This document shows, one piece after another, positions 3,103-33,164 of a stretch of 33,164 nucleotides of DNA (position 1 is the stretch's first letter; every line of letters begins with the position of its first letter). Position numbers and translations under genes: made by a program. The notes below the pieces were generated by a model. The model saw nothing but the letters and a program-made list of their open reading frames with translations. It ran no database searches and had not been told where the DNA came from. Source of the DNA: an uncultured Mycoplasmatota bacterium (lineage in GTDB: Bacteria; Bacillota_I; Bacilli_A; RF39; UBA660). Where the stretch lies: NCBI GenBank assembly GCA_947365915.1, contig CANAXT010000001.1:71347-104510 (forward strand), read 5' to 3'.

Positions 3103-3130
3103 TTGATTGAATCAATTTTTGGAGTATAAT
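3103..3130 (+). promoter_or_regulatory. Plus-strand sigma-A promoter
   Basis: TTGATT (3103-3108), a 16-base spacer and TATAAT (3125-3130). It points into the cationic-peptide frame at 3163 and the structured RNA beyond it, with no terminator in between. Confidence 0.6.
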
Positions 3131-3162
3131 TTTTCACATATGATTATTCATAGGTAAAGTTT

Positions 3163-3249: not shown

Positions 3250-3330
3250 GATTTCAAACTCTGTTACAGTTTTCGGTTGGTATAAAAATTTATAGAATAA
3301 TTATATTTATATGAGTTACCAGTCGTAAAC

Positions 3331-3545: not shown

Positions 3546-3569
3546 CTTTATAAAATAAGAGATAATTCG

Positions 3570-3598
3570 TTTACTACTACATTGGAATGTGGTATAAT
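3570..3598 (+). promoter_or_regulatory. Promoter of the small toxin mRNA
   Basis: TTTACT (3570-3575), a 17-base spacer and TATAAT (3593-3598), with a TGG extension directly before the -10. The expected transcription start is near 3605, giving a leader of about 67 bases before the peptide ATG. Confidence 0.75.
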
Positions 3599-3636
3599 AT
3601 ATTTGGAATACAAGACTTTGTTGGGTGTTTGCCGAA

Positions 3637-3663
3637 CTTCCATTCTTATGGATAGAAGGGAGG
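3637..3663 (+). promoter_or_regulatory. Hairpin hiding the toxin ribosome binding site
   Basis: CTTCC-A-TTCT (3637-3646) pairs with AGAA-GGGAG (3654-3662) around a TATGGAT loop, with a single bulged A and one G-T pair. The GGGAGG Shine-Dalgarno (3658-3663, 8 bases before the ATG) lies in the 3' arm, so translation would be blocked in the folded mRNA. Type I toxin mRNAs such as fst use the same device. Confidence 0.65.
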
Positions 3664-3671
3664 CTTGAGAT

Positions 3672-3764
3672 ATGAAAAAAAGAGTTTTTATTATAAAGAT
3701 TCTAAATAACATTATTCTCATTTTGTTCCTTCTACTTTTATTAGTAGTCGAGATAAAGAAATAG
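3672..3764 (+). CDS. Small hydrophobic peptide, candidate type I toxin
   Basis: A 30-residue frame runs from ATG 3672 to TAG 3762-3764. It has a basic start (MKKR), a hydrophobic stretch of about 20 residues rich in L, I and V, and a charged end (VVEIKK): one membrane helix. Every expression part is in place: an extended -10 promoter, GGGAGG at 8 bases held in a hairpin, and a strong terminator at 3804-3844. An antisense promoter on the other strand faces it. The size, composition and layout match type I toxins (Fst, Ibs, TxpA and BsrG classes), which depolarise or disturb the membrane. The sequence does not clearly belong to any one of these families, so the toxin role is inference. Confidence 0.7.
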   Translation: MKKRVFIIKILNNIILILFLLLLLVVEIKK

Positions 3765-3867
3765 CACCCTAATTCAGTGAATTAAGGTGCAAACCAATTT
3801 GGCGAGCACTCAACTTTGCTTACAAGTCAAGTGTTCCACTTTTTATTTTATGAGGTTTTCCTCATCT
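3752..3867 (-). ncRNA. Antisense RNA, candidate antitoxin
   Basis: A transcript from the minus-strand promoter at 3874-3902 would start near 3867. It would run through the complement of the toxin 3' untranslated region and stop after the hairpin at 3764-3790 (GCACC/GGTGC and TAATTC/GAATTA), which on this strand is followed by a loose U-rich stretch (TATTTCTTTAT). It would cover about 90 bases of the toxin mRNA, including the stop codon and terminator. This 3'-overlapping convergent layout is that of txpA/RatA and bsrG/SR4 in Bacillus. The ends are estimates. Confidence 0.65.
3804..3844 (+). terminator. Terminator of the toxin mRNA
   Basis: GAGCACTCAACTT (3804-3816) pairs with AAGTCAAGTGTTC (3824-3836) with two mismatches and one G-T pair, followed by CCAC and T5. 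Confidence 0.65.
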
Positions 3868-3873
3868 GTATAC

Positions 3874-3902
3874 ATTATACTAGATTTTTTTATTTTATGC
3901 AA
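3874..3902 (-). promoter_or_regulatory. Antisense RNA promoter
   Basis: On the minus strand: TTGCAT (3902-3897), a 17-base spacer and TATAAT (3879-3874). It is close to consensus and points at the toxin gene. No coding frame begins downstream of it, so its product is most simply an antisense RNA. Confidence 0.75.
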
Positions 3903-3926
3903 GTTTTCGAGTTGGAAATTTTTTTG

Positions 3927-4838
3927 TTAATTATCACATTTAATTGTAGATACTCCCTTAGCTTTTTTGATTTTATATTTCTTCCACATATTATTATATA
4001 TGAAATAGAAAATTATCATTCCCGAAGTGCACAATATTAAATCATCTACATCTGCAACACCGATTTGAAATATAAATTGAGTTATTTCAATTATAGAAAT
4101 AATTCCTAAAGATAACATAAAGTTCATAGTAAACTTTTTCACTTTAAACAATTCCATTAAGAAATATTCTAGTGGCATAAATATGAATAAGTTTCCAAAT
4201 ATATTTATTATGATCGAATATAAATTTCCATTTTTTAAAATTTCAATTATCGTTTTTAATGGTATTAAATTTATGCTTTCAATATGATGATATCGTGCAA
4301 ATAGTACCATGTTAAAAAGTAAAATTATGTAATATATAAAAACAATAATTTGCGAAAATTTTGTTACTTTCTTTTTATCTTCTATTTTTTCAACGTAATT
4401 ATCATTATAAATTTTATTTCCTAGTATGATACATATAGAAGCCATTATCATTATCAATAATCTTATAAAATAATTTACTTCTATACTAGAATTGTATTCT
4501 AATCTTAAATAGAAAAGAAACAAAAAAATAGATAATATATATAGCAGTATTGTCAATTTAAAATGTGTGTTAAATTTGTTTGATTTATTTATCTTCTCAT
4601 ATTCAATTAATTGTTCTACTTCGTTTTTATTTTCCTCTCCATTCAACAGTTCTGAAATCTCTATATTCAGTACTTCAGATAGTGGTATTAATAATGATAT
4701 ATCTGGTGTTCCTCTACCTGTTTCCCATCTGGAAATTGCTTTTTCAGTAACAAATAATTTTTGGGCTAGTTCCTCTTGTGTAATTCCTAATTCTTTTCTT
4801 TTTTGTTTCAATAAATTAGATATTTTACTTAGATCCAT
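3927..4838 (-). CDS. XRE regulator fused to VanZ-like membrane domain
   Basis: Residues about 4-60 form an XRE/Cro helix-turn-helix (KRKELGITQEELAQKLFV, then EKAISRWETGRGTPD). After a linker come several membrane helices, and the last 110 residues resemble VanZ: NIFGNLFIFMPLEYFLMELF, then IEITQFIFQIGVADVDDLIL. A GTG at 4850 opens the frame, but GGGTGGGG lies 6 bases before the ATG at 4838, so I use that start (303 residues). It overlaps the end of the upstream membrane-protein gene by 14 bases, so the two are likely translationally coupled. A DNA-binding head on a membrane body suggests a membrane-tethered regulator that senses an envelope or lipid-like signal; the signal is unknown. Confidence 0.8.
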   Translation of the reverse strand: MDLSKISNLLKQKRKELGITQEELAQKLFVTEKAISRWETGRGTPDISLLIPLSEVLNIEISELLNGEENKNEVEQLIEYEKINKSNKFNTHFKLTILLYILSIFLFLFYLRLEYNSSIEVNYFIRLLIMIMASICIILGNKIYNDNYVEKIEDKKKVTKFSQIIVFIYYIILLFNMVLFARYHHIESINLIPLKTIIEILKNGNLYSIIINIFGNLFIFMPLEYFLMELFKVKKFTMNFMLSLGIISIIEITQFIFQIGVADVDDLILCTSGMIIFYFIYNNMWKKYKIKKAKGVSTIKCDN

Positions 4839-5475
4839 TACTATCCCCACCCTTTAATTGACAATAATTTGTTTTTAAATATTCTTCATATTTATTTTTA
4901 GATACTTCGTTTCGTTCGTGATAAGATATCCATATTATATCATCGATATTCAGAATTTCATAATATTTGCCAATACTATAATGAAATTTATCCATCATCC
5001 CAGCTGAATAAGTATACACTTCATCATTGTTTTCACAATAATAGTGCATATCTTCATAGATATCAGTTCTTCTAGATTCTTCATTTATGTTTGTCCCAAT
5101 CCATAATAAAAATATAAAATATAATGGAAGAAAAAATATTGTTGTCACTATTGAAATGCTAATTGAAAACATTTTCATAAATTTACTTTCTCGAAATCCC
5201 ATGATACATAGAATTATGATATTAGAGAAATTAAAGTAGCATTGTAAAACATTTTTGGAGCTTATCCATATTAAAGAATAGATAACACATACTGCACTTT
5301 TATATTTTATTTCTTTATGAAAAATAGCAATAACCGGCATGTTTATCATTATTAATAGACTCATCATGATTTGATATAATCTTCCACCAATGATTAAGTT
5401 TTTAAATATTAAATTATAAACGATAAATAATATTTCTACTATTACAGCATAATAACGAATTAACCTTTTTTTCAT
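4825..5475 (-). CDS. Multi-pass membrane protein, unknown
   Basis: This 216-residue protein has about four hydrophobic segments in the first 130 residues. A soluble tail of about 85 residues follows, rich in Y, E and D (for example YEDMHYYCENNDEVYTYSAGMM). It starts at an ATG behind AAGAAGGAA and has its own promoter at 5499-5527. Its 3' end overlaps the XRE-VanZ gene, so the two probably act together, perhaps as partner or sensor. I do not recognise a family. Confidence 0.65.
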   Translation of the reverse strand: MKKRLIRYYAVIVEILFIVYNLIFKNLIIGGRLYQIMMSLLIMINMPVIAIFHKEIKYKSAVCVIYSLIWISSKNVLQCYFNFSNIIILCIMGFRESKFMKMFSISISIVTTIFFLPLYFIFLLWIGTNINEESRRTDIYEDMHYYCENNDEVYTYSAGMMDKFHYSIGKYYEILNIDDIIWISYHERNEVSKNKYEEYLKTNYCQLKGGDSNGSK

Positions 5476-5498
5476 TCGGATTCCTTCTTTCTGACATC

Positions 5499-5527
5499 AT
5501 CATATTATGAATACCAAAAGAAGTCAC
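5499..5527 (-). promoter_or_regulatory. Promoter of the membrane protein / XRE-VanZ pair
   Basis: On the minus strand: GTGACT, a 17-base spacer and TATGAT, about 24 bases before the ATG at 5475. Confidence 0.55.
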
Positions 5528-5594
5528 CCTATGAATCGTAGAATTTTAAAAAAATTTTTTATATGTATATTTCTCATAATTTTCATTGTAATTA

Positions 5595-5621
5595 TGTTAT
5601 AATATAAATAATTACAGGAGG
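5595..5621 (+). promoter_or_regulatory. Extended -10 and RBS for the plus-strand gene
   Basis: TGT-TATAAT (5595-5603) with no good -35, then a perfect AGGAGG at 5616-5621, 7 bases before the ATG at 5629. The leader would be only about 20 bases. Confidence 0.6.
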
Positions 5622-5628
5622 CTTTTAT

Positions 5629-6213
5629 ATGGAATTAAAAGAAAAACTAAAAGAGTTAAAGTTAAGAATTTTGGACTTACCTAATTCTACAAATAGAGGG
5701 TACGAATTTGAAGCTGAGCTTAAAGATCACCCCATTGGTAATCAACACATTTACAAGCTTCATTATGTTCAATATTATAGAATGGGTGAACGCTATGGAT
5801 GGCATGAAAATAATATCGGTATGGTCGATTGGCCATGTAGTCCTTTTATGCTACCTGAGAAAATGAGCAGAGAGGATGCTTTTAAAGTTTTATCCTATTT
5901 AACCGACTTTGTAGAAGCTAAATTACATTTACGTCCATGTTCGTATCAAAGCGTTTCCACATTAGATGGTATATTAAACTTAGAGAGACTTGGTTTTACA
6001 AGGCCACATTCAGATCCAGCTCCTACTGAAGTACTCTCTTTATTTACAGTGGATGGAAGAGTCCAACTTTTCAAAAAAAGTAGATATTATAGAAACTATT
6101 TTGAATGGTATACAGAGAATGTTACATTAGATGAAGTAAAGGACATCTATCAAAGATGTGGAATTGAATTTTATGATGTAAAGTTTAACAATCGACAATT
6201 TGTAAAAAAATAA
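5629..6213 (+). CDS. Hypothetical soluble protein
   Basis: This 194-residue protein has no signal peptide or membrane helix. It is rich in aromatic residues (HYVQYYRMGERYGWHENN, YYRNYFEWYTENV) and has an amphipathic helix (SREDAFKVLSYLTDFVEAKL). It is the only long gene on the plus strand in the window and has its own extended -10 promoter, an ideal AGGAGG and a strong terminator, so it is a complete one-gene unit. No catalytic motif or family is recognised. Confidence 0.7.
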   Translation: MELKEKLKELKLRILDLPNSTNRGYEFEAELKDHPIGNQHIYKLHYVQYYRMGERYGWHENNIGMVDWPCSPFMLPEKMSREDAFKVLSYLTDFVEAKLHLRPCSYQSVSTLDGILNLERLGFTRPHSDPAPTEVLSLFTVDGRVQLFKKSRYYRNYFEWYTENVTLDEVKDIYQRCGIEFYDVKFNNRQFVKK

Positions 6214-6237
6214 TCAATTCATACTTTATTTTTATTC

Positions 6238-6269
6238 AAAAAATTAGAACAACTCGCTTCTAATTTTTT
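6238..6269. terminator. Bidirectional terminator
   Basis: AAAAAATTAGAA (6238-6249) and TTCTAATTTTTT (6258-6269) form a perfect 12-bp stem around an 8-base loop. It serves the plus-strand gene ending at 6213 and the minus-strand MFS-like gene ending at 6295. Confidence 0.8.
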
Positions 6270-6294
6270 GTTTATACTTATTTACTTACCAATC

Positions 6295-7461
6295 TTATTT
6301 ATCAAAATCTTTTTGACAATATTTATTATAAATTATCATTTGCAATAATATACTGAAAGATAAAATGGCTGCAACAATTCGTAGATTATTTAAATTAAAA
6401 GCATATAATACTGATACTAATAGGATCAATTCACTTACTGCCTTCCCAAGTCCATGAATCACTTCACTTAGGTAAGTATATTCCAATCGATATGTTGCTA
6501 ATGTTTTATTGGAACTAATATTAAATACTGCGGTATCTACCAAAATCTGAGTAATTTTATAAGCCATATTAAACACGATATTATAAATAATAAACATAGC
6601 AAATGAATTTGTAAAAATAATTGGAATTGTTACTATGAATATGGCAATAGCTGATACAAAAAAAGCATTTTTGTTTTCTTTTTCTTTTAAATATTTTTTG
6701 ACAAATAAAGAGGTTATTAATCCAAGGAATGCGAAAATAGCATTTAGGTTACCCAAACTGGATTCCGAACCCAAGGTTAAAAAAATAATAAATGTAATGG
6801 TAGTATCTAATCCTCCTCTAAATCCCATTCCTTCTAAGAACACAATCTTATATATTTCTTTTGCTTGTTTGTCCTTAAGTGCATACTTTATATTTGACAA
6901 TTTGATTGGACTCAAATTAAATTCATATTTATCCAGGTGAAAACTTGACAGTACCGCAAGCAATACTAATAAAATTATGATGACTAATAATATGGAATAT
7001 GAGGCATTTACAATGATATAGCCCATTCCAATTGTTGAGGCAATCGATATGATACTAGTAACAATACTATTATAAGAAAATATCTTTTTAAACTGAGTAT
7101 CATTTTTAAAATTATATAAAATCATCTTATATGGAGACCAATATAATAAATTTGTAGCAGAATCTAAAAGTGCATATAGATATATATAGTCTCGAATGTT
7201 ATGACCAAGACATAATAAGACAAATAGGCATAATCCATTTGAGAATAGCCCTAGACGGTAAACATTTAATACATTTTTTTTATTTAATAATTTTAAAGAT
7301 AGAAACGAAAATATTCCAATTACTGAATATTTTAGTGTATAATACAAAACCACACTAGCGAAATTACCATCTGTAATTTTTAAAAAATAAATGGCTAGAA
7401 ATAGTGAGGTAAATTTGCTTACAATGCTATTAATAGAATGCGTAAATACTATTTTTTCCAT
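6295..7461 (-). CDS. MFS-like membrane transporter (copy 2)
   Basis: This 388-residue, strongly hydrophobic protein has about 11-12 membrane helices and short basic loops, in the manner of the major facilitator superfamily. It is a diverged paralog of the protein at 9357-10541. Shared landmarks are an aromatic Y-W-(S/F)-P-Y segment at the end of a helix near residue 108 (LLYWSPYKMILYN; the other copy has SAYWFPYNLFVIN) and an E(G/F)-F-G/TGMN-GG loop near the middle. The start is an ATG behind AAAGGAGT. It is last in the gene order that begins at 11368 and follows the X remnant. The substrate is unknown; linkage to an ABC exporter suggests export of, or immunity to, a small molecule or peptide. 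Confidence 0.65.
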   Translation of the reverse strand: MEKIVFTHSINSIVSKFTSLFLAIYFLKITDGNFASVVLYYTLKYSVIGIFSFLSLKLLNKKNVLNVYRLGLFSNGLCLFVLLCLGHNIRDYIYLYALLDSATNLLYWSPYKMILYNFKNDTQFKKIFSYNSIVTSIISIASTIGMGYIIVNASYSILLVIIILLVLLAVLSSFHLDKYEFNLSPIKLSNIKYALKDKQAKEIYKIVFLEGMGFRGGLDTTITFIIFLTLGSESSLGNLNAIFAFLGLITSLFVKKYLKEKENKNAFFVSAIAIFIVTIPIIFTNSFAMFIIYNIVFNMAYKITQILVDTAVFNISSNKTLATYRLEYTYLSEVIHGLGKAVSELILLVSVLYAFNLNNLRIVAAILSFSILLQMIIYNKYCQKDFDK

Positions 7462-14281: not shown

Positions 14282-14986
14282 TTATCCTAAAAAATTAAGA
14301 ATAAATGGTCCTAAAATCAGCATCATAATGAGTGGTACAACAAATAAAACGGAAACAATACTAATTTTATTTGGAATTTTATTGATTTGTCCTTTAATTT
14401 CTAATATTTGTTTGTCTCTTAAAAATGCGATTTGATTATACATGGTATCTAAGATACTATTTCCAAAGATATTGGTTTGTGTAATGTTTAAGATAATGTT
14501 GTTGACGGTTTCTGATGGAATCCGTTTTTTCATGTCTTCTAATGCTTCTAGTAATGATTTTCCAAAGTGTACTTCTAATAGTGATCGTTTGAATTCATCA
14601 GATAGTTCTGAGTTCACATTAGCAACGGTTACTTCTAGCGAGTTTTCTAGGTTTCTTCCAGATTCTAGTGTAAGTGTTAGAATTTCAAAAAAGTATAATG
14701 CTTCATGGTCCAGTTTTCGAATGCGTTCTTTGAGTGGTTTTGTGAGCACTATATAGTAATAAGCATAATACCAGACAAGGGTAATGGCAGGTGCGAAAAT
14801 ATAGGCATGTTTTGATTGATATAGGACAATCAAAAAGACAATCAGTGAAGATAAAAGTCGTAAGTTAATGAATGTTGTGGCATCAAATTTGGCTTTTTTG
14901 CCCAACATGTTAATTCGCATTCCAATGTTTTCTAAGTCTTCTTCACGGTAAATTTTTCGAATGAAATTGTTTTTCACGGTTTTCAC
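14282..14986 (-). CDS. tadC: TadC-like type II/Tad secretion inner-membrane protein
   Basis: This 234-residue protein has a T2SSF (GspF) domain: two helices near the start (residues 40-85), a cytoplasmic four-helix core with the conserved ILTLTLESGRNLENSLEV and HFGKSLLEALEDM, and a C-terminal helix with VPLIMMLILGPFIL. Together with TadB it forms the membrane platform of a Tad machine. The frame opens at a GTG that overlaps the TadB stop (GTGA); a second GTG three codons later is also possible. It is the last gene of the Tad operon. Confidence 0.8.
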   Translation of the reverse strand: MKTVKNNFIRKIYREEDLENIGMRINMLGKKAKFDATTFINLRLLSSLIVFLIVLYQSKHAYIFAPAITLVWYYAYYYIVLTKPLKERIRKLDHEALYFFEILTLTLESGRNLENSLEVTVANVNSELSDEFKRSLLEVHFGKSLLEALEDMKKRIPSETVNNIILNITQTNIFGNSILDTMYNQIAFLRDKQILEIKGQINKIPNKISIVSVLFVVPLIMMLILGPFILNFLG

Positions 14987-16494
14987 ATCCTAACTGTCAT
15001 AATTTTTCTAACACAAATGATATATACAACATAGAAAATGACGATCACAAATGATAATAGTATTCCTAGTGGTGTTGTAAAGAATGGTAAGAAGTATTCT
15101 TTGTTTACTAGGCTTACGAAAATAACAAATAAGATTGGTACACAGAATAATACATACATAATCAGTTTGGAACTGCTAGTAAGTGATTCTAATTCTAACC
15201 ATAGTTTCTTTTTGTTGAAAAGTGATAGTTCAATGGAAGAAAATACTTTGATGATATTCCCTCCTGTTTTGTTTAAAATACTTAATGAGGCGGTTAGATA
15301 GTTTACTTCTTCTAGTTTGATTCGGTCTGCGAATCGTTCGAATACAGTTTCTATGGATAATCCATAAGAAAGTTCTGATCTCATTTTTCTAAATTCTTTG
15401 GCGATTGCTCCATCTAGTTCTGTCATAACGAGTTCAATTGCTTGGGTAATACTTCTTCCTGATTTGAATGCATTATTCATGATGATAATGGCTTGTAATA
15501 GGTCGTTTTCAATGTGTCTTCTATGAAATTTATATTTTGATATGTAAATAATGTCTGGGGCGAAAAAGCCTAGGAAAAATGGAAAGACAATTTCATATGG
15601 ATTCATCAGTTCTAGTTGAATGGTTGAAGAAATCACTGCGATCATTACAAAGATGAAAGCGATTAGAAATTTGGCTGATACAAAGTCAATTCCTGTCCTT
15701 GTTTTTGCTCCCATGATTCCTACATATTTATCATATCGATTGGCGTATTTTTTTAAGAATACTGATTTTGATAGTGATTTACTGATTTTTGATAAGAGGT
15801 TACAGTATTGGTTATAATATTTATCAAATAGTGATAGTGAGTTATCGTTGATGGGTTCAATACTGTATTTTCGAATTCTTTTTTCTAGTTTTACGCTTCT
15901 TCGGTAAGATAGTATGGCTAGAATGATGGTTGTTAGGGCAATAATCATTCCAAGTTGAATTAAAATGACACCAAATGTATCATTTTTGACGACGTTAATG
16001 GTCATACTTTTGGTGGTGGTATTGCCTGCTTGGTCCGTTACGGTATATTCTAGTTTTTTGATTCCTAGTTCTTCAAAGTTTAATTCATCAATGTTTGTTG
16101 TGACTTGATTTAGTAAGTCTCCATCTTGATTGTCATAGGCTTTTACATCTGCCATTGGATATAAGGGGGTTCCTATTTTCATTTTCATTGATTCGTTTTC
16201 TAGTTTGATGATTGGTGGATCTTTGTCGATTTTATAGATTCCACTTTCTATGATGGTTTTGTAGTTATAGTAATCAAATGTTTGAACTTTGATTTGATAA
16301 GTTCCTGTTTCTTCTAATACAATATTCACTGGTTTTACTTGGTCTATGCTTTCTGATTTGATGGGAACTCCATCTTTTGAAACGGTATATTCATATCTCC
16401 TTACTAATGCGTTTGGAGTAAATACAATGTTTAGGTTTTGATTGGTTGGTTCTGTATGGGAACCTAGGCTAAAGTTGGAGTTGATTCCATCCAT
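14983..16494 (-). CDS. tadB: TadB-like platform protein with Ig-like N-terminal region
   Basis: Residues 1-170 look like two Ig-type domains; the second resembles DUF5011 (DPPIIKLENESMKMKIG, KAYDNQDGDLLNQVTT, KLEYTVTDQAGNTTTKSMTINV). A membrane helix follows at about 177-197, then a basic segment, then the GspF/TadB core (LLQAIIIMNNAFKSGRSITQ, ELSYGLSIETVFERFADR). The Ig-like part should be outside the cell, yet no signal peptide precedes it, so the protein would have to insert N-out through its first helix. A GTG at 16503 follows the TadA stop directly in the same frame; the ATG at 16494 with AGGTGA before it is the better start (503 residues). An ordinary TadB is about 300 residues. Confidence 0.8.
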   Translation of the reverse strand: MDGINSNFSLGSHTEPTNQNLNIVFTPNALVRRYEYTVSKDGVPIKSESIDQVKPVNIVLEETGTYQIKVQTFDYYNYKTIIESGIYKIDKDPPIIKLENESMKMKIGTPLYPMADVKAYDNQDGDLLNQVTTNIDELNFEELGIKKLEYTVTDQAGNTTTKSMTINVVKNDTFGVILIQLGMIIALTTIILAILSYRRSVKLEKRIRKYSIEPINDNSLSLFDKYYNQYCNLLSKISKSLSKSVFLKKYANRYDKYVGIMGAKTRTGIDFVSAKFLIAFIFVMIAVISSTIQLELMNPYEIVFPFFLGFFAPDIIYISKYKFHRRHIENDLLQAIIIMNNAFKSGRSITQAIELVMTELDGAIAKEFRKMRSELSYGLSIETVFERFADRIKLEEVNYLTASLSILNKTGGNIIKVFSSIELSLFNKKKLWLELESLTSSSKLIMYVLFCVPILFVIFVSLVNKEYFLPFFTTPLGILLSFVIVIFYVVYIICVRKIMTVRM

Positions 16495-16503
16495 GTTACT
16501 CAC

Positions 16504-17844
16504 CTACGCTTTCTTTTTTTGAACAAATATGTCGTCTAGGGTATCGTTTCCTCTTGATTTGATTGTTTGATATACGTTTGGAATTCGTTTGTGTAATATA
16601 AATTCTCCTAATACTTCTCCGTTTTCTTTGACTCCGTCTTGTTTGAATTCAAATATTTCTTCTAGTTGAATGGTGTTATCTACAATTCCTGTTATTTCAC
16701 TGATACTGGTTACTTTTCTTCTTCCGTCGGTTAGTCTTGAAATTTGTACGACTATGTTAATGGCTCCTTCGATATATTCTCGAATGGCTCTGATTGGTAT
16801 TTCCATTCCTGCCATTAAAACCATTGTTTCTAAACGGTTTAAGGCGTCTAATGGACCGTTGGCATGCATAGTCGTTAATGATCCATTATGTCCTGTGTTC
16901 ATGGCTTGAAGCATATCAAATGCTTCTTTTCCTCTGACTTCTCCGACGATGATTCGGTCTGGTCTCATACGCAATGAGTTGATGACTAGGTCTCTGATGG
17001 TGATGGCGCCTTCTCCTTCATAGTTGGTTAGTCTTGTTTCTAGTGAGATAACGTGTTCTTGTTCTAGTCTTAGTTCTGCTGCGTCTTCGATGGTAATGAT
17101 TCTTTCTTCTTTTCCGATAAAGGAAGATAATACGTTTAATAGTGTTGTTTTCCCGCTTCCTGTTCCTCCGCATATGATGATATTGAGTTTGGCTTTTACG
17201 CAAGCTTCTAGAAATCTTGCCATATATGGGGTAAGTGATCCTGTTCTTAGGTAGTCTTCGATGTTGGCAAGTTCTTCTTTGAATTTTCGAATGGTTAGGA
17301 TTGGTCCGTTTAAGGATAATGGTGGGATTACAGCATTTAATCTCGATCCATCTGCGAGTCTGGCGTCAACCATTGGGTTGGCTGTATCAATGGTTCTTCC
17401 GAGTGGTTGAATCATTCTTTGAATGGTTCTTAGGATATGGTCTTCGTTGATGAATGAGATACTATTATCTCTAACGACTCTTCCTTCTAGTTCGATATAA
17501 ATCTCGTTTTTTCCGTTTACCATGATTTCGGTAATGTCTTTGTCTTCTAATAGTTCAGTCAGTGGTCCACTTCCTGTAATTTCGTTGTCGATTAGGTTAT
17601 ATAGATAGTTTCTTTCGACGTTAGATAGGTCATATCCGTCAATGGTTTTGTCTATTTGGGTTCGGACAAAGTCGGTCATGTCTCTTGCTTTTGTGATATT
17701 ATTGTCGATTAGGTTTTGTATGATTTTAGTTCTAAGTTCGTCTAAAAGAATTTTGTTTGGAAATGCTTCATAGTCTGAGATATAGGAAACTTGTGGGGTT
17801 TCTATTTCTACTTCGAATTCTTCTACAAATTTTTTCTTTGCCAT
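16504..17844 (-). CDS. tadA: TadA/CpaF secretion ATPase
   Basis: This hexameric ATPase of the type II/IV secretion superfamily powers assembly of Tad pili or related fibres. Over its 446 residues it has Walker A GGTGSGKTT (226-234), an Asp box TIEDAAEL (251-258), Walker B RIIVGEV (298-303) and a His box TTMHANG (324-330). The N-terminal domain has GSGPLTELLEDKDITEIMVNG, typical of CpaF. It starts at an ATG with AGAGG at 7 bases, 2 bases after the tadZ stop. Confidence 0.93.
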   Translation of the reverse strand: MAKKKFVEEFEVEIETPQVSYISDYEAFPNKILLDELRTKIIQNLIDNNITKARDMTDFVRTQIDKTIDGYDLSNVERNYLYNLIDNEITGSGPLTELLEDKDITEIMVNGKNEIYIELEGRVVRDNSISFINEDHILRTIQRMIQPLGRTIDTANPMVDARLADGSRLNAVIPPLSLNGPILTIRKFKEELANIEDYLRTGSLTPYMARFLEACVKAKLNIIICGGTGSGKTTLLNVLSSFIGKEERIITIEDAAELRLEQEHVISLETRLTNYEGEGAITIRDLVINSLRMRPDRIIVGEVRGKEAFDMLQAMNTGHNGSLTTMHANGPLDALNRLETMVLMAGMEIPIRAIREYIEGAINIVVQISRLTDGRRKVTSISEITGIVDNTIQLEEIFEFKQDGVKENGEVLGEFILHKRIPNVYQTIKSRGNDTLDDIFVQKKKA

Positions 17845-17846
17845 GG

Positions 17847-18587
17847 TTACCTCTTTTCTAGTAATGCTATCATGTTTTTAAATGTGCTGATGGTTTTTTT
17901 GTGTTTGTTATTTAAAATTGGGATTTTCCCATCTAATATGTATTTGTCGATGTTTTTTGTGTGAAAGCTTTTTGGTATGATGAAGTCAATGTTGTTTTTT
18001 ATGATGTTTTTGATGTCTACTTTTGAGAAATAGTCTCTACCTGTTATGGATTCATTTAATATAATTTGGTAGTTTTCTTGTTCCATGTCTTTATGAATGG
18101 ATACTCTTGTTGCCATATTTTTTAAGTCTAGTGGATCATTGTTGATAATATATAGGATTTGGTCACTGGCGTCTAGGGCGACTAGTGTAATTGGGTTTAG
18201 GAAGTGGTTGGTATCGATTAAGATGAAGTCATATCGGTAAATGATTTTTGATAGGACAACAGAGATATATTTACTGTTGATTTTGCTTGCGTTTCTTGGG
18301 TCTTTTGGGGCTGGTATGACATCGATATAGTCGTTATATTTTACTAGGTAAGAATCAATTTTTTCAAAGCGATTGCTTCCAATATCATCTACTAGGCTAT
18401 AGATATCTGGGTCGTTTGCGATGTTTAAAAATGGTGCGATTGCTCCTGCGTAAAGGTCTAAGTCTAGTATAAGTACTTTCTTTTTTTGGGTGCTTAAGAT
18501 ACCTGCTAAATTTAGTAGTGTGGTGGTTTTTCCGGTTCCGCCTTTTACTGATGTAATGGTTACAATTTTTGCTTTTTCTAATGCCAT
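17847..18587 (-). CDS. tadZ: TadZ/CpaE-like ParA-family ATPase
   Basis: This 246-residue MinD/ParA-type protein has a deviant Walker A KGGTGKTT (15-22), Walker A' DLDLYAGAIAPF (about 42-53) and the switch DFILIDTNHFLN. In Tad systems TadZ marks the site of assembly at the membrane. No receiver domain is present, unlike many CpaE proteins. The start ATG has AGAGGG at 6 bases. It is read after the TadG-like gene and before TadA. Confidence 0.82.
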   Translation of the reverse strand: MALEKAKIVTITSVKGGTGKTTTLLNLAGILSTQKKKVLILDLDLYAGAIAPFLNIANDPDIYSLVDDIGSNRFEKIDSYLVKYNDYIDVIPAPKDPRNASKINSKYISVVLSKIIYRYDFILIDTNHFLNPITLVALDASDQILYIINNDPLDLKNMATRVSIHKDMEQENYQIILNESITGRDYFSKVDIKNIIKNNIDFIIPKSFHTKNIDKYILDGKIPILNNKHKKTISTFKNMIALLEKR

Positions 18588-18596
18588 GTTATCCCT

Positions 18597-18971
18597 CTAT
18601 TCTTTGGTTATTATTTTTTTTCCATCTATGATTTTTCCTTGGTATTGTAGTTTAATTATTCCTTTGTTTTTGGTAAAAATATAGTTTGTTCTTTTTTCTA
18701 TGTTGATGGTTATAATTTCGTTTTCTATGGTTAGTCTTAGGTCATAGATATTTTTTATGTTTTCGTTTAATAGGTATGTCATGTTGGTTTTGAGTGCAGT
18801 TTCGTCTTGGTCTAAGTGATCTAGTGCGTAGTAAATCGTTTCTTCGGTTGCTCGTTCGATGTTTCTTTTTTCTATGTAAGAAAGTCCTACATCAATAATT
18901 AGGCTTGCACTAATGAGTAAAATTGGTAGTAGTAAAACAAATATGGCCAGTACTTGTCCTTTATGGTTCAT
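18597..18971 (-). CDS. TadG/TadE-like pseudopilin
   Basis: This 124-residue protein has the short basic start and hydrophobic helix of TadE/TadG-like pilins (MNHKGQVLAIFVLLLPILLISASLIIDVG), then a small extracytoplasmic domain. Unlike its neighbour, it lacks the glutamate five residues after the conserved glycine (GQVLAIF, isoleucine there), so processing by a prepilin peptidase is doubtful. It overlaps the tadE stop by 11 bases and has GGGTGA before its ATG. Confidence 0.75.
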   Translation of the reverse strand: MNHKGQVLAIFVLLLPILLISASLIIDVGLSYIEKRNIERATEETIYYALDHLDQDETALKTNMTYLLNENIKNIYDLRLTIENEIITINIEKRTNYIFTKNKGIIKLQYQGKIIDGKKIITKE

Positions 18972-19299
18972 TTAGGATCACCCTTTTGGCTTCTATTTGG
19001 TAGTTTTTCCCTAGTATTTTGTTTAGTCCTGGTGTGTTAATGGTTATTTTTTTGGTTAGTGTGATCGATGTTGTGTCTGAATTGGCTTCGATATTAGAAG
19101 TTAAGTTGTTTTGTTTGATGTAGGTATTGATTCCTGCTTCGTTTTTTTGTTTAACTAGGTTTACTATTTGGTCTAGGTCATTTTCTAAGGTGTATTTTTT
19201 ATAGATAATATTTCCAAAGTCTATGATTCCTAACAGAAGTAGTAATAGTATTGGTAATATTATAATAAATTCTACTAGGGCTTGTCCTTTGTTTTTCAT
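18961..19299 (-). CDS. tadE: TadE-like pseudopilin
   Basis: This 112-residue protein begins MKNKG/QALVEFIIILPILLLLLLGIIDFG, a textbook TadE leader with glycine at -1 and glutamate at +5, the pattern cut by Tad prepilin peptidases. A small domain follows that would face outside. It is first in the Tad operon, behind an extended -10 promoter at 19328-19356; its ribosome binding site is weak (GGTAAG). No Flp major pilin or prepilin peptidase is in this window, so those would have to be elsewhere. Confidence 0.82.
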   Translation of the reverse strand: MKNKGQALVEFIIILPILLLLLLGIIDFGNIIYKKYTLENDLDQIVNLVKQKNEAGINTYIKQNNLTSNIEANSDTTSITLTKKITINTPGLNKILGKNYQIEAKRVILNEP

Positions 19300-19356: not shown

Positions 19357-19715
19357 GATAAAGTGTGTTTTTTTTGTTGTGTTTGTGTATAGGTCAAAAA
19401 TTGCTTTTATTTTCATTTGTAAATCCATATTTGAAATGTTGAATGTCCTTTAATTTATATTTATTTTGTTTGGGTTTGACTTTTTGTGTAGATAATTTTT
19501 TATTTTAAATAAATTACATGGTCGAAAAATGATCAAATAATTCAGTAATTAATTTAAGGCTAGTCTTTTTTTTATTTACATTTTAGAAAATTTTCAGACT
19601 GTAAAGTATAAGGTGGCTTCCAATATTTCCAATATTTTTATTTAAATTAGAATACTTATTTATAAAGTAAATTACCACAATTGATTGTGATAATTTACTT
19701 TAATTTTTGACGAAT
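19357..19715. other. AT-rich intergenic stretch with a long hairpin
   Basis: No gene is visible here. The main feature is an inverted repeat at 19664-19701: AAAGTAAATTA and TAATTTACTTT plus CACAA and TTGTG around a TTGA loop, 16 bp with one mismatch. On the plus strand AATTTTT follows it, so it could be a terminator or an operator. A T8 tract lies at about 19567-19574. Confidence 0.5.
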
Positions 19716-19742
19716 AAAAAAAGAATCTTTCGATTCTTTTTT
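19716..19742 (-). terminator. Terminator of the surface-protein gene
   Basis: AAAAAAGAATC and GATTCTTTTTT form a perfect 11-bp stem around a GAAA loop on the minus strand, 3 bases after the stop at 19746. Confidence 0.85.
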
Positions 19743-19745
19743 AGA

Positions 19746-20258
19746 TTACGCTTTTAAACTACGTCTTTTACGAACAATCACAATGATTAATGCTAATGAA
19801 ATAAGTGCAGTTGCTGCTAATGGAAGTATATATGTTACCTCTCCTGTTGCTGGACTGGTTGCTTCCCCTACTTTTTTATATTTTACACAAATTGAATGAT
19901 CTCCAGTCATGTTGTCAAATGTGTAAGTTCCATCTGCACTGATCTCTACATATCTACGGTCCATTAATACACTTTCAATTTCGTATCCTTGTGCTACTTC
20001 AACTTTGAAAGTTTGTGTACAACCTTCTGCTACTTCTACAAATACTTCTTTTCCTGAAGCAATTGTAATAAGTCCTGTTGCATCTGCTTCTGTAATTGTA
20101 CAACTATTTTTTGTTGTTGTAATTGTACCATAGTTAATTCCACTTGCATCTTGTCCATTAATGACATCAATTTTACCTGCTTTTGCTACTCCTGAACCAA
20201 TTCCTAAGGCACAAAAAGCAATTGCGAAAAAGCTCATCATTTTTAAAGTTCTTTTCAT
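19746..20258 (-). CDS. Sortase-anchored surface protein, SPATG signal
   Basis: This 170-residue protein has a signal peptide (basic start, hydrophobic core, likely cut after AKA at 26) and an external domain of about 105 residues. It ends in a cell-wall sorting signal: SPATG at 135-139, a hydrophobic stretch and RKRRSLKA. SPATG departs from LPXTG and fits a dedicated sortase. The external part has two cysteine pairs at most and beta-rich repeats (FKVEVAQGYEIESVLM, DGTYTFDNM), like a small adhesive or structural domain. It has a near-perfect promoter and a strong terminator, so it is likely made in quantity. The class B sortase gene is 65 bases upstream and is the obvious partner. Confidence 0.82.
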   Translation of the reverse strand: MKRTLKMMSFFAIAFCALGIGSGVAKAGKIDVINGQDASGINYGTITTTKNSCTITEADATGLITIASGKEVFVEVAEGCTQTFKVEVAQGYEIESVLMDRRYVEISADGTYTFDNMTGDHSICVKYKKVGEATSPATGEVTYILPLAATALISLALIIVIVRKRRSLKA

Positions 20259-20287: not shown

Positions 20288-20316
20288 ATTATCCTACAAA
20301 ATAGAAATAATGTCAA
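20288..20316 (-). promoter_or_regulatory. Strong promoter of the surface-protein gene
   Basis: On the minus strand: TTGACA (20316-20311), a 17-base spacer and GATAAT (20293-20288), followed by AAGGGAG before the ATG. It lies directly after the sortase stop, so substrate and enzyme are controlled separately. Confidence 0.8.
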
Positions 20317-20323: not shown

Positions 20324-22705
20324 TTACTCACTTGACACATTTTCTGGTTGTAAATAGGAATATAATCTTTTTGCTATTAAAACAAGACGTTTGTTTTTTT
20401 CGTTTTCATCACATGTTGACAGTGTTAAAATATGATCCTCTAAATTTACTTCTAAGTTGTTGGATACAATCGGTTCTATGTTTTCCAAATAAGATTGGAA
20501 AGAGGTCTCACTATTAAAATTAAATACATAATGGTCCTTAGAAGCATCAAATTCATATACCATGTATATCTCATATTGGTAAGTTGCTTTTGGTGTCATA
20601 ATCCATACATATTTATGATTATTTAAAAATTCTAAGTCTTTGTATTTCTTTAATGATCCAAACATGGTTCCATTTTTTAAATTGTGTCCATATAATACGG
20701 TATTGGTAGAAGTAAAGTCAGATCCATTTCTGTAATCTCCAAATATAGAACCACTGATGTTGTATTTTTTATTGTAAAGATGGGTTAAATAGTATTCATT
20801 GTCAGATCCTTGTACTACTGGATAGTTGATTGGTGTGTCATCAATCCATATCCAAGCGATTGTTTCCTCATTTTCTTTTTTTACTTCTGTAAAATCCATT
20901 TGAGGAATGCTATCGTTGATCGGGAATTCTTTTTGGTTTGGATCTGGATCTAAAATTGGTAGTTTCCATTTTCCTTCTATTTTTCCATAACTATTTGAAG
21001 CACTCCAATATTGGTATACTGTTTTTGCTAGTAAGAATAGTGAGACTGAAAAAATTAAAATTAAAATAATCAATACTACCATAGATACTTTTTGACTGAT
21101 AATCTTTTTCTTTAATACATTTCTTCTAATGTCTCTTGCTTCATTTAAGTCTAATACTTGTGTTAAAGAAAGATCGGATCCTTCATATAATTTTGGATTG
21201 GTCATATATTGAACATTTCCATATAGTCGATTTAAGTGTGTGTTACAAGCAAGCCATTTTTTTTGATCTTTTACAATATACTTACTAATTTCTTTTTGTT
21301 TGATCTCATAAAATTTCAGCATATATTGATTTAATTTGGAAAGAAGTACTTCTAATTCTTTGGGTGCTAAACGTTTGGTTTGGATATTTAAATTAATTTC
21401 TCTTACAAAATATTCTCTAAAAATTTTGTCTAATAGGTTTTCTGTTTTATTGTCTTTTATTTCATAGTGTAGTAATGAAACAAATTCCTCTATAAGTCGT
21501 TCTATCGTTAAATGAGATTCCAATATGGTTCTTTCACAGTAAAAAGCTTCTTGTTCATATAAATCTAATAATTCTGCTATTTTTTTTCGGCTTCCTTTTG
21601 AATCATATTCGTCTTTTAAATATGGTTCGTTCTCAATGACTTCATTTGCTGTTTTTACCGTTTGATCTAATAAGTCATTCTGTGTAATGATTAGGGTATC
21701 TGGTTGTTCTGAAGTGTCTCCCCCACTTTTCATTTGTAATTCATAGTCAGCCATTTTTTGCTCATAAATTTGGGGTGCTACTTCTTTTAAAAAGCGGAAA
21801 TAATAAATAAGACTCCAATATTTCATTTCACTTTCTATGCTTAAGTAAGAATATTCTTCGTAAAAGAAGGTAGATCCAATTATTTTTTTTATGGTATCTT
21901 GCTTTTTACTTTTAATTTCTTCATATTTATTATGTCCCAAAGACTTCATTTTATATCTTTTTTCGACAAGTTCAAATAAGTGTGGTAAATAATTTGTATT
22001 TTCTTCTAGTGTTTCTTTGATGACATTCAAATTGATATACCATTGTTCTTCTTTGTAAAGAAATGGTTTGTTATCATCAATGGAATCTATTTTTACAGTT
22101 TCTTCTATTTTTAATTGATGAAATAAGTCTAGTATTAAAAATCTTAAAATTTCTGCATAAATGATTGGCTTTAATTTTTGATCTTTTTGAAATAAGTTCC
22201 AAAATATGTAACAGACGTATTCATGTGGAATATGGTGATTTTTGTAAATCATAAAATAAGTTAAAAAGTCTCTTAATTCATAGTCATTTAATGGTTTTCT
22301 TTTTTTTACTTGTTTTTGGTAAAATAAGCCAATTTCGTTTCTTGATTTTTCAAAGTTTATGTTTTCTAAAAAGGTTTTAAATTCTTTGCATTCTTTTGGA
22401 TATTGTTCTAATAGTTCTAGTAATTCAACACAAGCTTCTGTTTCATAAAATAAGAAAGGGTTTTGTTTTAGTTTTTGTAAGTATAATTGATTTAATATTT
22501 TTAGTGCGATTCCTAGGTATTTAAAGTTCATTGTCTTTTCTAGTTTCAATACTGAGGCATCCAATAATTGTTGAAAGTTTTTTAAGTAGTATGATTTTGT
22601 TCCATTTAAAAAAGGGCAATCATTTGGATCTAACAATTGCTTACATAAGTCATCATTTTCTAATATTTGTAATAACTCATTAATTGTAATATTCCCTTTT
22701 TTCAT
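20324..22705 (-). CDS. Class B sortase with large cytoplasmic domain
   Basis: The last 230 residues form a class B sortase: a single membrane helix at about 540-562, a WIWIDDTPINYPVVQGSDNEYYL segment, catalytic H674 in YGHNL, C765 in TLSTC and R773 in KRLVLIAKR. It cleaves a sorting signal outside the membrane and transfers the protein to the wall or another subunit. The first 535 residues are an unrecognised, very helical, charged region with no signal peptide, which must lie in the cytoplasm; known sortases are 200-300 residues with a tail of a few residues there. The start ATG has GGAG 7 bases upstream, inside the end of the 58-residue gene, so the two are coupled. Its likely substrate is the SPATG protein next door. 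Confidence 0.85.
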   Translation of the reverse strand: MKKGNITINELLQILENDDLCKQLLDPNDCPFLNGTKSYYLKNFQQLLDASVLKLEKTMNFKYLGIALKILNQLYLQKLKQNPFLFYETEACVELLELLEQYPKECKEFKTFLENINFEKSRNEIGLFYQKQVKKRKPLNDYELRDFLTYFMIYKNHHIPHEYVCYIFWNLFQKDQKLKPIIYAEILRFLILDLFHQLKIEETVKIDSIDDNKPFLYKEEQWYINLNVIKETLEENTNYLPHLFELVEKRYKMKSLGHNKYEEIKSKKQDTIKKIIGSTFFYEEYSYLSIESEMKYWSLIYYFRFLKEVAPQIYEQKMADYELQMKSGGDTSEQPDTLIITQNDLLDQTVKTANEVIENEPYLKDEYDSKGSRKKIAELLDLYEQEAFYCERTILESHLTIERLIEEFVSLLHYEIKDNKTENLLDKIFREYFVREINLNIQTKRLAPKELEVLLSKLNQYMLKFYEIKQKEISKYIVKDQKKWLACNTHLNRLYGNVQYMTNPKLYEGSDLSLTQVLDLNEARDIRRNVLKKKIISQKVSMVVLIILILIFSVSLFLLAKTVYQYWSASNSYGKIEGKWKLPILDPDPNQKEFPINDSIPQMDFTEVKKENEETIAWIWIDDTPINYPVVQGSDNEYYLTHLYNKKYNISGSIFGDYRNGSDFTSTNTVLYGHNLKNGTMFGSLKKYKDLEFLNNHKYVWIMTPKATYQYEIYMVYEFDASKDHYVFNFNSETSFQSYLENIEPIVSNNLEVNLEDHILTLSTCDENEKNKRLVLIAKRLYSYLQPENVSSE

Positions 22706-22709
22706 CTTT

Positions 22710-22886
22710 CTACTCCGCTTTTTCTTCTTTTATTGTTTGACTTAATTTTCGGTAATGATTTGCGTAATGAAGAAAGTAGTTTGCTTCATCGTTTTTTTTA
22801 CATTTTAGTGCTTCTTTATATTTTTCAAAGTAGTAAACCATTTTTTCTAAATCATTTAAGTTTTGTTCAAAATAATTTTTCTCCAT
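22710..22886 (-). CDS. Small helical protein upstream of sortase
   Basis: A 58-residue, highly charged protein (MEKNYFEQNLNDLEKMVYYF opening, EEKAE end) is predicted to be two helices. The ATG at 22886 is preceded by AGGGTGA, and its TAG is 4 bases before the sortase ATG; the sortase ribosome binding site is inside its last codons. It has its own promoter at 22909-22937. Size and position suggest a soluble partner of the sortase's cytoplasmic domain. No family is recognised. Confidence 0.65.
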   Translation of the reverse strand: MEKNYFEQNLNDLEKMVYYFEKYKEALKCKKNDEANYFLHYANHYRKLSQTIKEEKAE

Positions 22887-22957: not shown

Positions 22958-23007
22958 ATTCCAAAAAAACTCCACAATGGAGTTTTTTTGGAATGATTTT
23001 CTTTTAA
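22958..23007. repeat. Terminator repeat, copy 1
   Basis: A 50-base sequence with a perfect 17-bp stem (ATTCCAAAAAAACTCCA / TGGAGTTTTTTTGGAAT, loop CAA) plus 13 flanking bases that include the TAA stop of the ATPase gene (23004-23006). It is 48/50 identical to 24312-24361. The stem and T7 tracts on both strands make it a bidirectional terminator. Confidence 0.85.
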
Positions 23008-24254
23008 TAATTTAAGCTTTCTGGATCCAATAAAAAATCAAATACACTCATTGTTATAATTCCAAATTCATTTCTTGTTCTTTTTATATAATCTTTCACA
23101 ATGATAATCTTTTTGAATGAATCGTTAATTTTTAGTAGTGGGCGTTCTTCTTGTTCTATCTTTTCTTCTGTTGGCATATGAAATGCAGATTGGATATAAA
23201 TTTTATTATTTCCTTTATTTGCAATAAAATCTACTTCTAATTGTTTGTATACAAATTCTTTTTCTTTTCTAGTTTTTAATTCCACAACTCCAACATCAAC
23301 TTCGTACCCTCGCCTTTTTAGTTCTAAATATATTACATTTTCCATTATATGAGTTTCTTCATATTGTCTAAAGTTAATAAAAGAATTCCGAAGTCCTAAA
23401 TCACTAAAATAAAATTTGTATGGGGTACTCATATATTTTTTTCCTTTTACATCATATCGTTCTGCTTTTTCTATTAAAAAAGATTCTTCTAAATATTTTA
23501 AATAGGCACTAATGGTTTTTGGATCTATATTTAATCCCGCAGTTGATTTAAATGTATCTGAGAGTTTTTTTGGATTGGATAATGAGCCAATGCTTGATGA
23601 AATAATTTCTATTAAATTGATTAGTTCTGCATCATTTTTTATGTCATTTCTTTCTACTACATCATTGATATATACATTTTTTTGTTGTTCTTTTAGGTAA
23701 TTCATTTTCCTTTCATCGCTATTCATAGATACAACTAGTGGTAATCCACCATAGGTGATGTATTCAACCCATCCATCTAGTTTGTCACCTTTATAAACGG
23801 ACATAAATTCACAGAATGAAAGTGGATAGATTCTAATTTCTTCTCCACGTCCTCTAAATTCTGTAACAATATCAGTCGATAAAAATTTGGAATTGCTTCC
23901 AGTTACGTAAATATCAATGTTTGGAATTCTTAATAATCCATTTAGTACTCCTTCAAAGTTGTCTACTAATTGAATTTCATCTAGTATTACGTAATAGGTA
24001 CTGTCATCTATTATTTTTTCTTTTATATATTTACTTAAGTTTTGTGGAGTCCATAAATTTTCATTATCGGAATCATCTAGTGCGACTTTGATGATATGGT
24101 TTTTATTTACTTTATTTTTTAAGAGATATTCATAAAATATGGTGTTTAGTAAATAGGATTTTCCACATCTTCTTATCCCTGTTACTACTTTTATCAGTCC
24201 ATCATTTTTTGCTTCTATTAGTTTATTTAGGTAGTAATCTCGTTTTATTTGCAT
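23004..24254 (-). CDS. AAA ATPase with DUF4143 domain
   Basis: This 416-residue protein belongs to a widespread family of AAA_14 ATPases with a C-terminal DUF4143 region of PDDEXK-like fold. Walker A GIRRCGKS is at 26-33, Walker B YYVILDEIQ at 87-95, and sensor TGSNSKFLS at about 118-126. The end has the nuclease-like YEVDVGVVELKTRKEKEF...LEVDFIA and IYIQSA. Its role is unclear; members are often transferred between genomes and sometimes linked to defence or toxin-like genes. It starts at an ATG behind AGGAGAGG with its own promoter. It sits alone between two copies of the same terminator repeat, which suggests it was inserted after RNase R. Confidence 0.85.
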   Translation of the reverse strand: MQIKRDYYLNKLIEAKNDGLIKVVTGIRRCGKSYLLNTIFYEYLLKNKVNKNHIIKVALDDSDNENLWTPQNLSKYIKEKIIDDSTYYVILDEIQLVDNFEGVLNGLLRIPNIDIYVTGSNSKFLSTDIVTEFRGRGEEIRIYPLSFCEFMSVYKGDKLDGWVEYITYGGLPLVVSMNSDERKMNYLKEQQKNVYINDVVERNDIKNDAELINLIEIISSSIGSLSNPKKLSDTFKSTAGLNIDPKTISAYLKYLEESFLIEKAERYDVKGKKYMSTPYKFYFSDLGLRNSFINFRQYEETHIMENVIYLELKRRGYEVDVGVVELKTRKEKEFVYKQLEVDFIANKGNNKIYIQSAFHMPTEEKIEQEERPLLKINDSFKKIIIVKDYIKRTRNEFGIITMSVFDFLLDPESLNY

Positions 24255-31903: not shown

Positions 31904-33046
31904 TTACATGACTTCTAGTTCTTTCATATATTTTTTAATTCCTTCAAACATGATATTAATACTTGCATTTAAATCTCTTTCTAATTCGGTTTTACATTCT
32001 TCACATATCCAATTTCTAATTTTTAAATCTTTTAGTTTTTTATTTCTATGTCCGCAATGGTTACATATTTGTGAACTCGGGTAATAGGTTTCTATTTGAT
32101 AAAATTGTTTTCCTTTCCATTTTGTTTTGTATTCTAGTTGCCTTAGTAATTCATTCCATGAAGCATCGTAAATTGATTTTGAAAGTGATTTCTTTTTTAC
32201 CATTTCTGTAATTTTTAGTTTTTCTGTTACTACAATATCATGTTCTTCTGTTAGTTCTCTACTAATACTATGTAGGTAATATTTTCTAGCATTTTTTAGT
32301 TTTTGGTAAGCTCTTGCTAATTTTTGTTTGATTTTGTATCTGTTTTTACTTCCTGGGGTTGCTCTTGATAACCATCGGTTTAATCCTTTTATTTTTTTCT
32401 CATATCTTTTGATTTGTTTTGGATTTTTATATATTTTTCCGCTTGATGCTGTTACTAATGTTTTGATTCCTAAATCTATTCCTACGATACTCGTTGGTAT
32501 TTGTTTTGGTATTGTTGTTTGTTCTTCTATACATAGGCTCACATAATATTTGTTTGCTTCCTTATATACTGTTGCATTGATAGTTCTTCCATCTATTTTT
32601 CTTAATTTTCGATATCCTCTAATTTTCATTTCTTTTAGTTTTGGTAAGGTGATCATTCTTTTTTCTAAATCTAGTTTGATACTTTCATATGTTATTTTTT
32701 TATATGTGTTAATAATATTATTCGTTCTATAACTATTTCTACTTCTATTTTTACTTTTAAATTTTGGTTTTTCTCTTTGTTCTTTATAATGTTTTTGATA
32801 AGCATTATCCAAATCAAATATACTTGTTCTGAGTAGACAGCTGTCTACTTCTTTTAACCATTCATATTGTTTTATTAGTTCTGGTATTTGTTTAATAAAT
32901 GTATAAGCACTCATTTTTTCTGTTTTACTTTTTTCTAAGAAGTAGTTATAAATAAATCTATTAACTCCAAAGCTTTTATTGATTAATTGTTTTTGATTTT
33001 GGTTCGGATAGATTCTAAAGATATATCCTTTTAATTGTTTTTCCAA
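31904..33046 (-). CDS. tnpB: TnpB RNA-guided nuclease, IS605 family
   Basis: The protein opens KQLKGYIFRIYPNQNQKQLI, the standard TnpB N-terminus. The RuvC-like parts are SIVGIDLGIKTLVTAS (first Asp), DIVVTEKLKI (Glu) and ERDLNASINIM (last Asp). A four-cysteine zinc ribbon CNHCGH...WICEECK lies between the last two. All look intact. TnpB cuts DNA using an RNA made from the element's right end and helps the element persist. The best start is the TTG at 33046, with AGGGGTG at 6 bases (380 residues); an upstream ATG at 33070 is less well placed. Confidence 0.88.
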   Translation of the reverse strand: MEKQLKGYIFRIYPNQNQKQLINKSFGVNRFIYNYFLEKSKTEKMSAYTFIKQIPELIKQYEWLKEVDSCLLRTSIFDLDNAYQKHYKEQREKPKFKSKNRSRNSYRTNNIINTYKKITYESIKLDLEKRMITLPKLKEMKIRGYRKLRKIDGRTINATVYKEANKYYVSLCIEEQTTIPKQIPTSIVGIDLGIKTLVTASSGKIYKNPKQIKRYEKKIKGLNRWLSRATPGSKNRYKIKQKLARAYQKLKNARKYYLHSISRELTEEHDIVVTEKLKITEMVKKKSLSKSIYDASWNELLRQLEYKTKWKGKQFYQIETYYPSSQICNHCGHRNKKLKDLKIRNWICEECKTELERDLNASINIMFEGIKKYMKELEVM

Positions 33047-33068
33047 TGATATCACCCCTGATATATTC

Positions 33069-33097
33069 ATGATATCATACAAACATAGGTTCGTCAA
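33069..33097 (-). promoter_or_regulatory. tnpB promoter
   Basis: On the minus strand: TTGACG (33097-33092), a 17-base spacer and TATCAT (33074-33069) preceded by TGA. The -35 is kept in the deleted copy at 31737-31746. Confidence 0.6.
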
Positions 33098-33164
33098 TGT
33101 TTTTTTTCTAAAAAACGCACTTTGTCGAGTAGACAAACTCGACTTACCTCTCTTTCCTCATTGT

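Follow-up and report, generated by a model that had tools for sequence, protein, structure and literature searches.

A class B sortase with a probable cytoplasmic pseudo-peptidase domain in an uncultured Mycoplasmatota bacterium

Results

A three-gene sortase module and its conservation

We analyzed a window of 33,164 nucleotides from an uncultured Mycoplasmatota bacterium, in which an ORF of 58 aa (22710..22886), a 793-aa sortase ORF (20324..22705), and the gene of a 170-aa secreted protein (19746..20258) follow one another in this order on the minus strand. All features of these three genes given below lie on that strand. The 58-aa ORF was separated from the sortase start by 4 nt in the window and by 5 nt in four other genomes of the genus.

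The product of the second ORF was assigned to class B by domain searches, scoring 197.6 bits against TIGR03064 (cut-off 153.75), and its sortase domain was matched by PF04203 at 3.8e-14. The catalytic domain covers residues ~603-777 (20375..20899; TIGR03064, PF04203, PDB 5jcv), and its nearest solved structures were Listeria Lmo2181 (5jcv, 2.4e-37), B. anthracis SrtB, and C. difficile SrtB. H674, C765, and R773 were present and invariant across five orthologues, those of the window and the four other genomes. From the hydropathy profile, a single transmembrane helix was located at residues 542-560 (21026..21082) with the basic stretch RDIRRNVLKKKIISQK on its N side, and no signal sequence was detected at the N-terminus. 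Because of these three features an N-in topology is expected, which would place residues 1-541 in the cytoplasm. At the level of sequence, we showed that this is an intact class B sortase sharing its sortase domain, H-C-R triad, and single N-side transmembrane helix with other members of TIGR03064, including the three enzymes of known structure. Unlike those enzymes, it carries 535 cytoplasmic residues with a putative pseudo-peptidase domain before the membrane helix and is co-translated with the 58-aa protein.

Enzymes of this class cut their substrates at a C-terminal motif and link them to peptidoglycan. It was noted that the 170-aa product has the features of such a substrate, with a signal peptide, an SPATG motif at residues 135-139 (19842..19856; aligned with SPNTG in the orthologues), a transmembrane segment, and an RKRR tail. 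Its C-terminal arrangement of xPxTG, transmembrane segment, and basic tail was recognized as an LPXTG-type sorting signal by TIGR01167 (17.4 bits, cut-off 15.9), and PF00746 scored 16.2 bits, below its cut-off of 20. A gene encoding SPATG or SPNTG adjoins the sortase in all five genomes. The substrate promoter TTGACA-N17-GATAAT (20288..20316) agrees with the consensus at 11 of 12 positions and was found with the same hexamers and spacing in all five genomes, so that a separate promoter is supported by conservation beyond the consensus. The stretch AAGGGAGAGTGTTTT in the ribosome-binding region before the substrate ATG was identical in the five genomes, and a terminator-like hairpin with a T-run 3' of the gene (19714..19743 in the window) was seen by eye in each of them, with no match in a terminator scan. 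The SP[AN]TG motifs of the module resemble the SPKTG cleaved by C. difficile SrtB, which uses meso-DAP (PMC4371152). A MurC gene is present in the window, which indicates that the bacterium has at least part of peptidoglycan synthesis. In a published survey, most of the order RF39 was predicted to have peptidoglycan walls, and srtA/B were reported as missing from RFN20 and ML615J-28 (PMC10868615).

Of the five other genomes in the genus, four yielded the full-length sortase, and these four also contained the complete set of 58-aa protein, sortase, and SP[A/N]TG substrate. Identity among the sortase orthologues was 54-55% overall, with 51% over the N-terminal 535 aa and 62-69% over the sortase domain. 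The 58-aa protein, which is helical and rich in Lys and Glu, was 69-76% identical in the four genomes with 34 invariant columns. Its dN/dS values were 0.09-0.18 among the three closest orthologues and mostly 0.09-0.25 overall, with a highest value of 0.37, and the substrate showed 0.07-0.09 among the three closest orthologues. The fifth genome (G005), which is 97% complete, lacks the fused sortase, so members of the genus can do without the module. Across 193 genomes of the bacterial family, convincing matches to the 58-aa and substrate profiles were limited to this genus, and the 58-aa profile otherwise gave scattered matches at E 1e-3 to 0.1, many of them in other or broken frames. When genome contigs were searched, the single protein returned no match and the genus alignment returned only four MAGs of the same genus.

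These data support reading the three genes as one dedicated class B sortase module that most of the genus has kept. Co-translation and co-conservation make the 58-aa protein a candidate partner of the sortase N-terminus. A first-pass annotation of this DNA had described the catalytic triad, a cytoplasmic part of about 535 residues without signal sequence, a 58-residue protein translated just before the sortase, and an SPATG substrate made from a strong separate promoter; all four points were confirmed, and the survey for the three-gene set that it had proposed gave the distribution above. We also observed that an AAA_14/DUF4143 ATPase gene lies upstream of the module (window 23004-24254) and was not seen next to it in the orthologous loci, and that the window includes an IS200/IS605-type TnpB RNA-guided nuclease gene (31904-33136).

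Layout and selection of the cytoplasmic N-terminus

We divided the cytoplasmic part of the sortase into three regions. Residues 1-148 (22262..22705) form a helical N-terminal part in front of the hhalign match described below, which starts only at residue ~146-149, and relatives of these residues were not found outside the genus. Residues 149-330 (21716..22261) correspond by profile comparison to a zincin-like core homologous to free-standing HExxH proteins. Residues 331-535 (21101..21715) make up a helical C-terminal part in the predicted model, with hhalign homology extending to about residue 475-495. Searches of Pfam and NCBIfam returned nothing above cut-off for this N-terminus. A HEPN identity was rejected, as PF18729 (STY4199-like HEPN) reached only 17.3 bits against a cut-off of 25 and in only one of the five members.

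The N-terminus was retained at full length in all five genomes. Its dN/dS among the three closest orthologues was 0.06-0.09 over 555 codons, compared with 0.03-0.04 for the sortase domain; values were higher in more distant pairs, reaching 0.48 in residues 331-535. The 51% identity to the orthologues together with the low dN/dS indicates that these 535 residues are real and not a chance reading frame, and the domain probably still does something in the cell. All five fusions share H161, H258, H490, E262, E263, and E291. Within the cytoplasmic part, the longest stretch without any change is HNKYEEIKS (residues 258-266; 21908..21934), equal in length to the longest such stretch of the sortase domain (TMFGSLKKY). 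HNKYEEIKS begins 9 residues past a degenerate motif at residues 245-249 and is not conserved among the free-standing HExxH proteins. The plain reading is that HNKYEEIKS may form a new binding surface beside a former active site.

Homology to free-standing HExxH proteins and loss of the zinc motif

Using the five orthologues, we built a profile of residues 1-535, which recovered from other genera five proteins that lack a sortase domain (E 5.8e-10 to 2.9e-4), all of which possessed HExxH followed some 40-60 residues on by an invariant Glu. In the reverse direction, a profile of those five free-standing proteins alone recovered the window protein at 1.9e-9 and the orthologue of genome G002 at 1.8e-19, and members were found in 39 of the 193 genomes of the bacterial family. 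Comparison of the genus profile with the free-standing profile by hhalign gave a probability of 98.8% (E 1.1e-16) over columns 149-495. By these comparisons, residues ~149-495 descend from the family of free-standing HExxH proteins, which bear a zincin-type zinc-peptidase signature, and this descent is reported here as new.

HExxH was found in 34 of the 36 free-standing matches that were recovered as ORFs, the other two being short pieces of 173 and 194 aa, and no transmembrane segment was detected in any of the 36. In the alignment of 39 sequences, the 34 free-standing rows had H/E/H at the three key positions of the motif, against [ED]/L/K in each of the five fusions; since the free-standing rows were picked for having HExxH, their agreement holds by construction and 34 of 36 is the independent figure. 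The fusions read ELVEK, DLFEK, or DLLEK at this site (ELVEK at 21959..21973 in the window) and so do not carry the zinc-binding and catalytic motif. The equivalent of the third zinc ligand, E291 (21833..21835), was Glu in 39 of 39 rows and formed the only invariant column of the alignment. The zinc ligands and catalytic Glu of HExxH have thus been lost from the sortase N-terminus.

In the tree, the five sortases grouped together (100/100), and a long stem with 2.2 changes per column led to their clade. A single clade indicates a single fusion event and, in the simplest case, that the zinc motif was lost once, and on a branch of that length the domain may have taken on quite a different job. 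Given the homology and the contrast between HExxH in the free-standing proteins and [ED]LxEK in the fusions, the N-terminus is most likely a pseudo-peptidase domain that was fused once to a sortase. It shares with the free-standing proteins about 345 homologous residues, the same Glu, and a motif of the type P-x-L-x-x-EY-x-x-DG-x-x-K after that Glu. The free-standing proteins differ in being soluble, in keeping HExxH intact, and in occurring in scattered gene neighborhoods.

These relatives also qualify earlier expectations. The first-pass annotation had regarded the three genes as a dedicated anchoring system and had held that this reading would fall if the N-terminal part occurred as a separate gene in another context or lacked conservation. 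Separate genes of this kind literally exist as the free-standing HExxH proteins, so the N-terminus is not without relatives; conservation is present, as the dN/dS values and the spread of the module through most of the genus indicate. Since the separate-gene relatives keep an intact motif, they explain the origin of the domain while the module itself stands. The HExxH kinship gives the domain a different identity but leaves the module as real as before.

Predicted structure of the N-terminus

Profile comparison and structure prediction of residues 1-535, both proposed in the first pass, led to the HExxH relatives and to a well-scored model without a significant fold match. AlphaFold2 gave a pLDDT of 55 for the whole 793-aa protein with five orthologues and a pLDDT of 86.9 with pTM 0.70 for the 535-aa N-terminus with 34 relatives added; both the sequence length and the alignment differed between the two runs. 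The body of the model was mostly helical, with strands at residues 204-225, a helix at 240-256 that contains the old motif, and a further helix at 290-309 that starts at E291. This strand-helix-helix order is the one expected for a zincin core.

When the whole 535-aa model was compared with PDB and viral models by Foldseek and VIA-align, only helical-repeat look-alikes were returned and none were significant. Searches of PDB sequences with the N-terminal and HExxH profiles gave best E-values of 0.077 and 0.25 (proabylysin), which we did not take as evidence. As no significant solved relative emerged from Foldseek and VIA-align, we infer the zincin fold of the N-terminus from the sequence motif, the homology, and the predicted secondary structure.

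Long-N-terminus sortases in other genera

It had been suggested that the large N-terminal part has no counterpart in known sortases, and this holds only in part: long cytoplasmic N-termini of other kinds occur on class B sortases of the same bacterial family. In a first sample of 31 genomes of other genera, at least 17 encoded a class B sortase within an open frame of ~400-660 aa. Eleven such sortases (L017, L038, L040-L043, L045, L046, and L049-L051) share a common N-terminal domain of ~270 aa before the transmembrane helix, and several long-N-terminus sortases of other genera adjoin a protein ending in NPxTG or TPxTG. Like the window protein, they are class B enzymes with a large cytoplasmic part before the membrane helix and often a neighboring [NT]PxTG substrate. 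Unlike it, they carry a ~270-aa domain of unrelated sequence, for which kinship with the window N-terminus was rejected (hhalign probability 0.1%) and only weak leucine-rich-repeat-like PDB matches were obtained. Class B sortases of only 245-300 aa, whose N-terminus is short, were also common in the bacterial family. One genome encodes a second, short class B sortase (L002:1258-2076; 272 aa) that scored 151.9 bits, just below the TIGR03064 cut-off.

Proposed role and alternative explanations

To our knowledge, sortases have been viewed as enzymes whose cytoplasmic tail is short and which act after export of the substrate. We consider it reasonably probable that the whole locus is best explained as a dedicated module in which a cytoplasmic pseudo-peptidase domain binds a partner and anchoring is thereby localized or gated from the cytoplasm. 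The sortase would cross the membrane once, cleave SP[AN]TG on the outside, and join the protein to a peptidoglycan precursor. Inside, the pseudo-peptidase domain would not cut but bind its partner, with the 58-aa protein as the first candidate and a cytoplasmic or secretion-machinery element as another, and contact could be made through the conserved surface that surrounds the old active site (HNKYEEIKS, E291). The domain would then probably serve in sensing or docking. The constant co-occurrence of the sortase with the 58-aa gene and the substrate hints that anchoring is steered from inside the cell, and we infer control or localization of the sortase from this side. A more specific version is tentative: that the domain is a receptor gating anchoring, that the 58-aa protein is its ligand or adaptor, and that in this bacterial family cytoplasmic receptor domains arose on class B sortases more than once from unrelated folds.

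The genomic surroundings raise a different explanation, in which the domain would be a scaffold linking the sortase to Tad/Flp pilus machinery, and the SPATG protein would belong to the pilus base or otherwise associate with the pilus. Domain searches identified Tad/Flp genes (TadE, TadE/G, CpaE, CpaF, TadB, and TadC) as neighbors of the module at 14282..19299 on the minus strand. In the window and in three further genomes of the genus, tadE-tadC comes after the module; neither the fused sortase nor the Tad ATPase CpaF occurs in G005; and G211 has a free-standing HExxH gene immediately upstream of tadE (L089:7294-8475 and 2185-7243), the site of the sortase module in the window. These arrangements make the module-Tad link suggestive only. 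The substrate gene and tadE are separated by up to three variable genes or by none, the substrate gene comes with a promoter and a terminator-like hairpin of its own, and in G004 the module and the Tad genes sit on different contigs. Moreover, about 28 other Tad loci of other genera, some in short stretches, showed no sortase or HExxH gene upstream of tadE; with G211 alone among the Tad loci surveyed, an HExxH gene beside tadE was rejected as a general pattern. We therefore regard the scaffold as rather improbable. It was separately observed that the TadB-like T2SSF protein of the window (14983-16503) has a large N-terminal part with an Ig-like surface domain (PF16403).

Somewhat less improbable, though still doubtful, is a special case of the partner-binding explanation in which the domain would sense or deliver the substrate inside the cell and couple the Sec/signal-peptide stage to the sortase; the 58-aa protein would then act as an adaptor or chaperone specific to that substrate. 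The 58-aa and substrate genes always occur together in the set, and long-N-terminus sortases of other genera also often stand beside an [NT]PxTG substrate, but sortase and substrate are under separate promoters. Retention of enzymatic activity with a changed active site, for example a metal held by H258, E262, and E291 or other chemistry, appears quite improbable. The six invariant His and Glu residues and the unbroken HNKYEEIKS run would fit it, but all three HExxH positions are replaced, no known catalytic pattern was recognized, and the N-terminus gave no Pfam or NCBIfam match above cut-off; a changed catalytic site is less likely than a new binding surface near HNKYEEIKS. We give the least credit to the domain being a passive remnant of an accidental fusion, retained only as an appendage for expression or folding: other genera manage without the domain and many class B sortases of the family have only a short N-terminus, but the domain is full length in five genomes and its dN/dS in close pairs is low.

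In the open-licence literature, we found no text on sortases with large cytoplasmic or pseudo-peptidase domains. If the partner-binding explanation is true, a sortase with a 535-residue ex-peptidase domain would offer a direct route from the cell interior to surface-fixed proteins, and a cytoplasmic receptor domain on a sortase would be a mode of regulation for which no description was found in that literature.

The free-standing HExxH family was examined in its own right. No Pfam, NCBIfam, or PHROG family matched it above cut-off; three to four members gave sub-threshold matches to SprT-like (PF10263) and DUF6782 (PF20573) at E 0.003-0.04, and neither family matched the window protein. A class-wide search outside the bacterial family returned only weak matches, some of them to HExxH proteins of ~160 aa. 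These soluble HExxH...NY...ExDA proteins (L089-L125, e.g. L091:7992-9230 and L090:2544-4328) were encountered in about a fifth of the sampled family genomes and represent an undescribed group of putative metallopeptidases.
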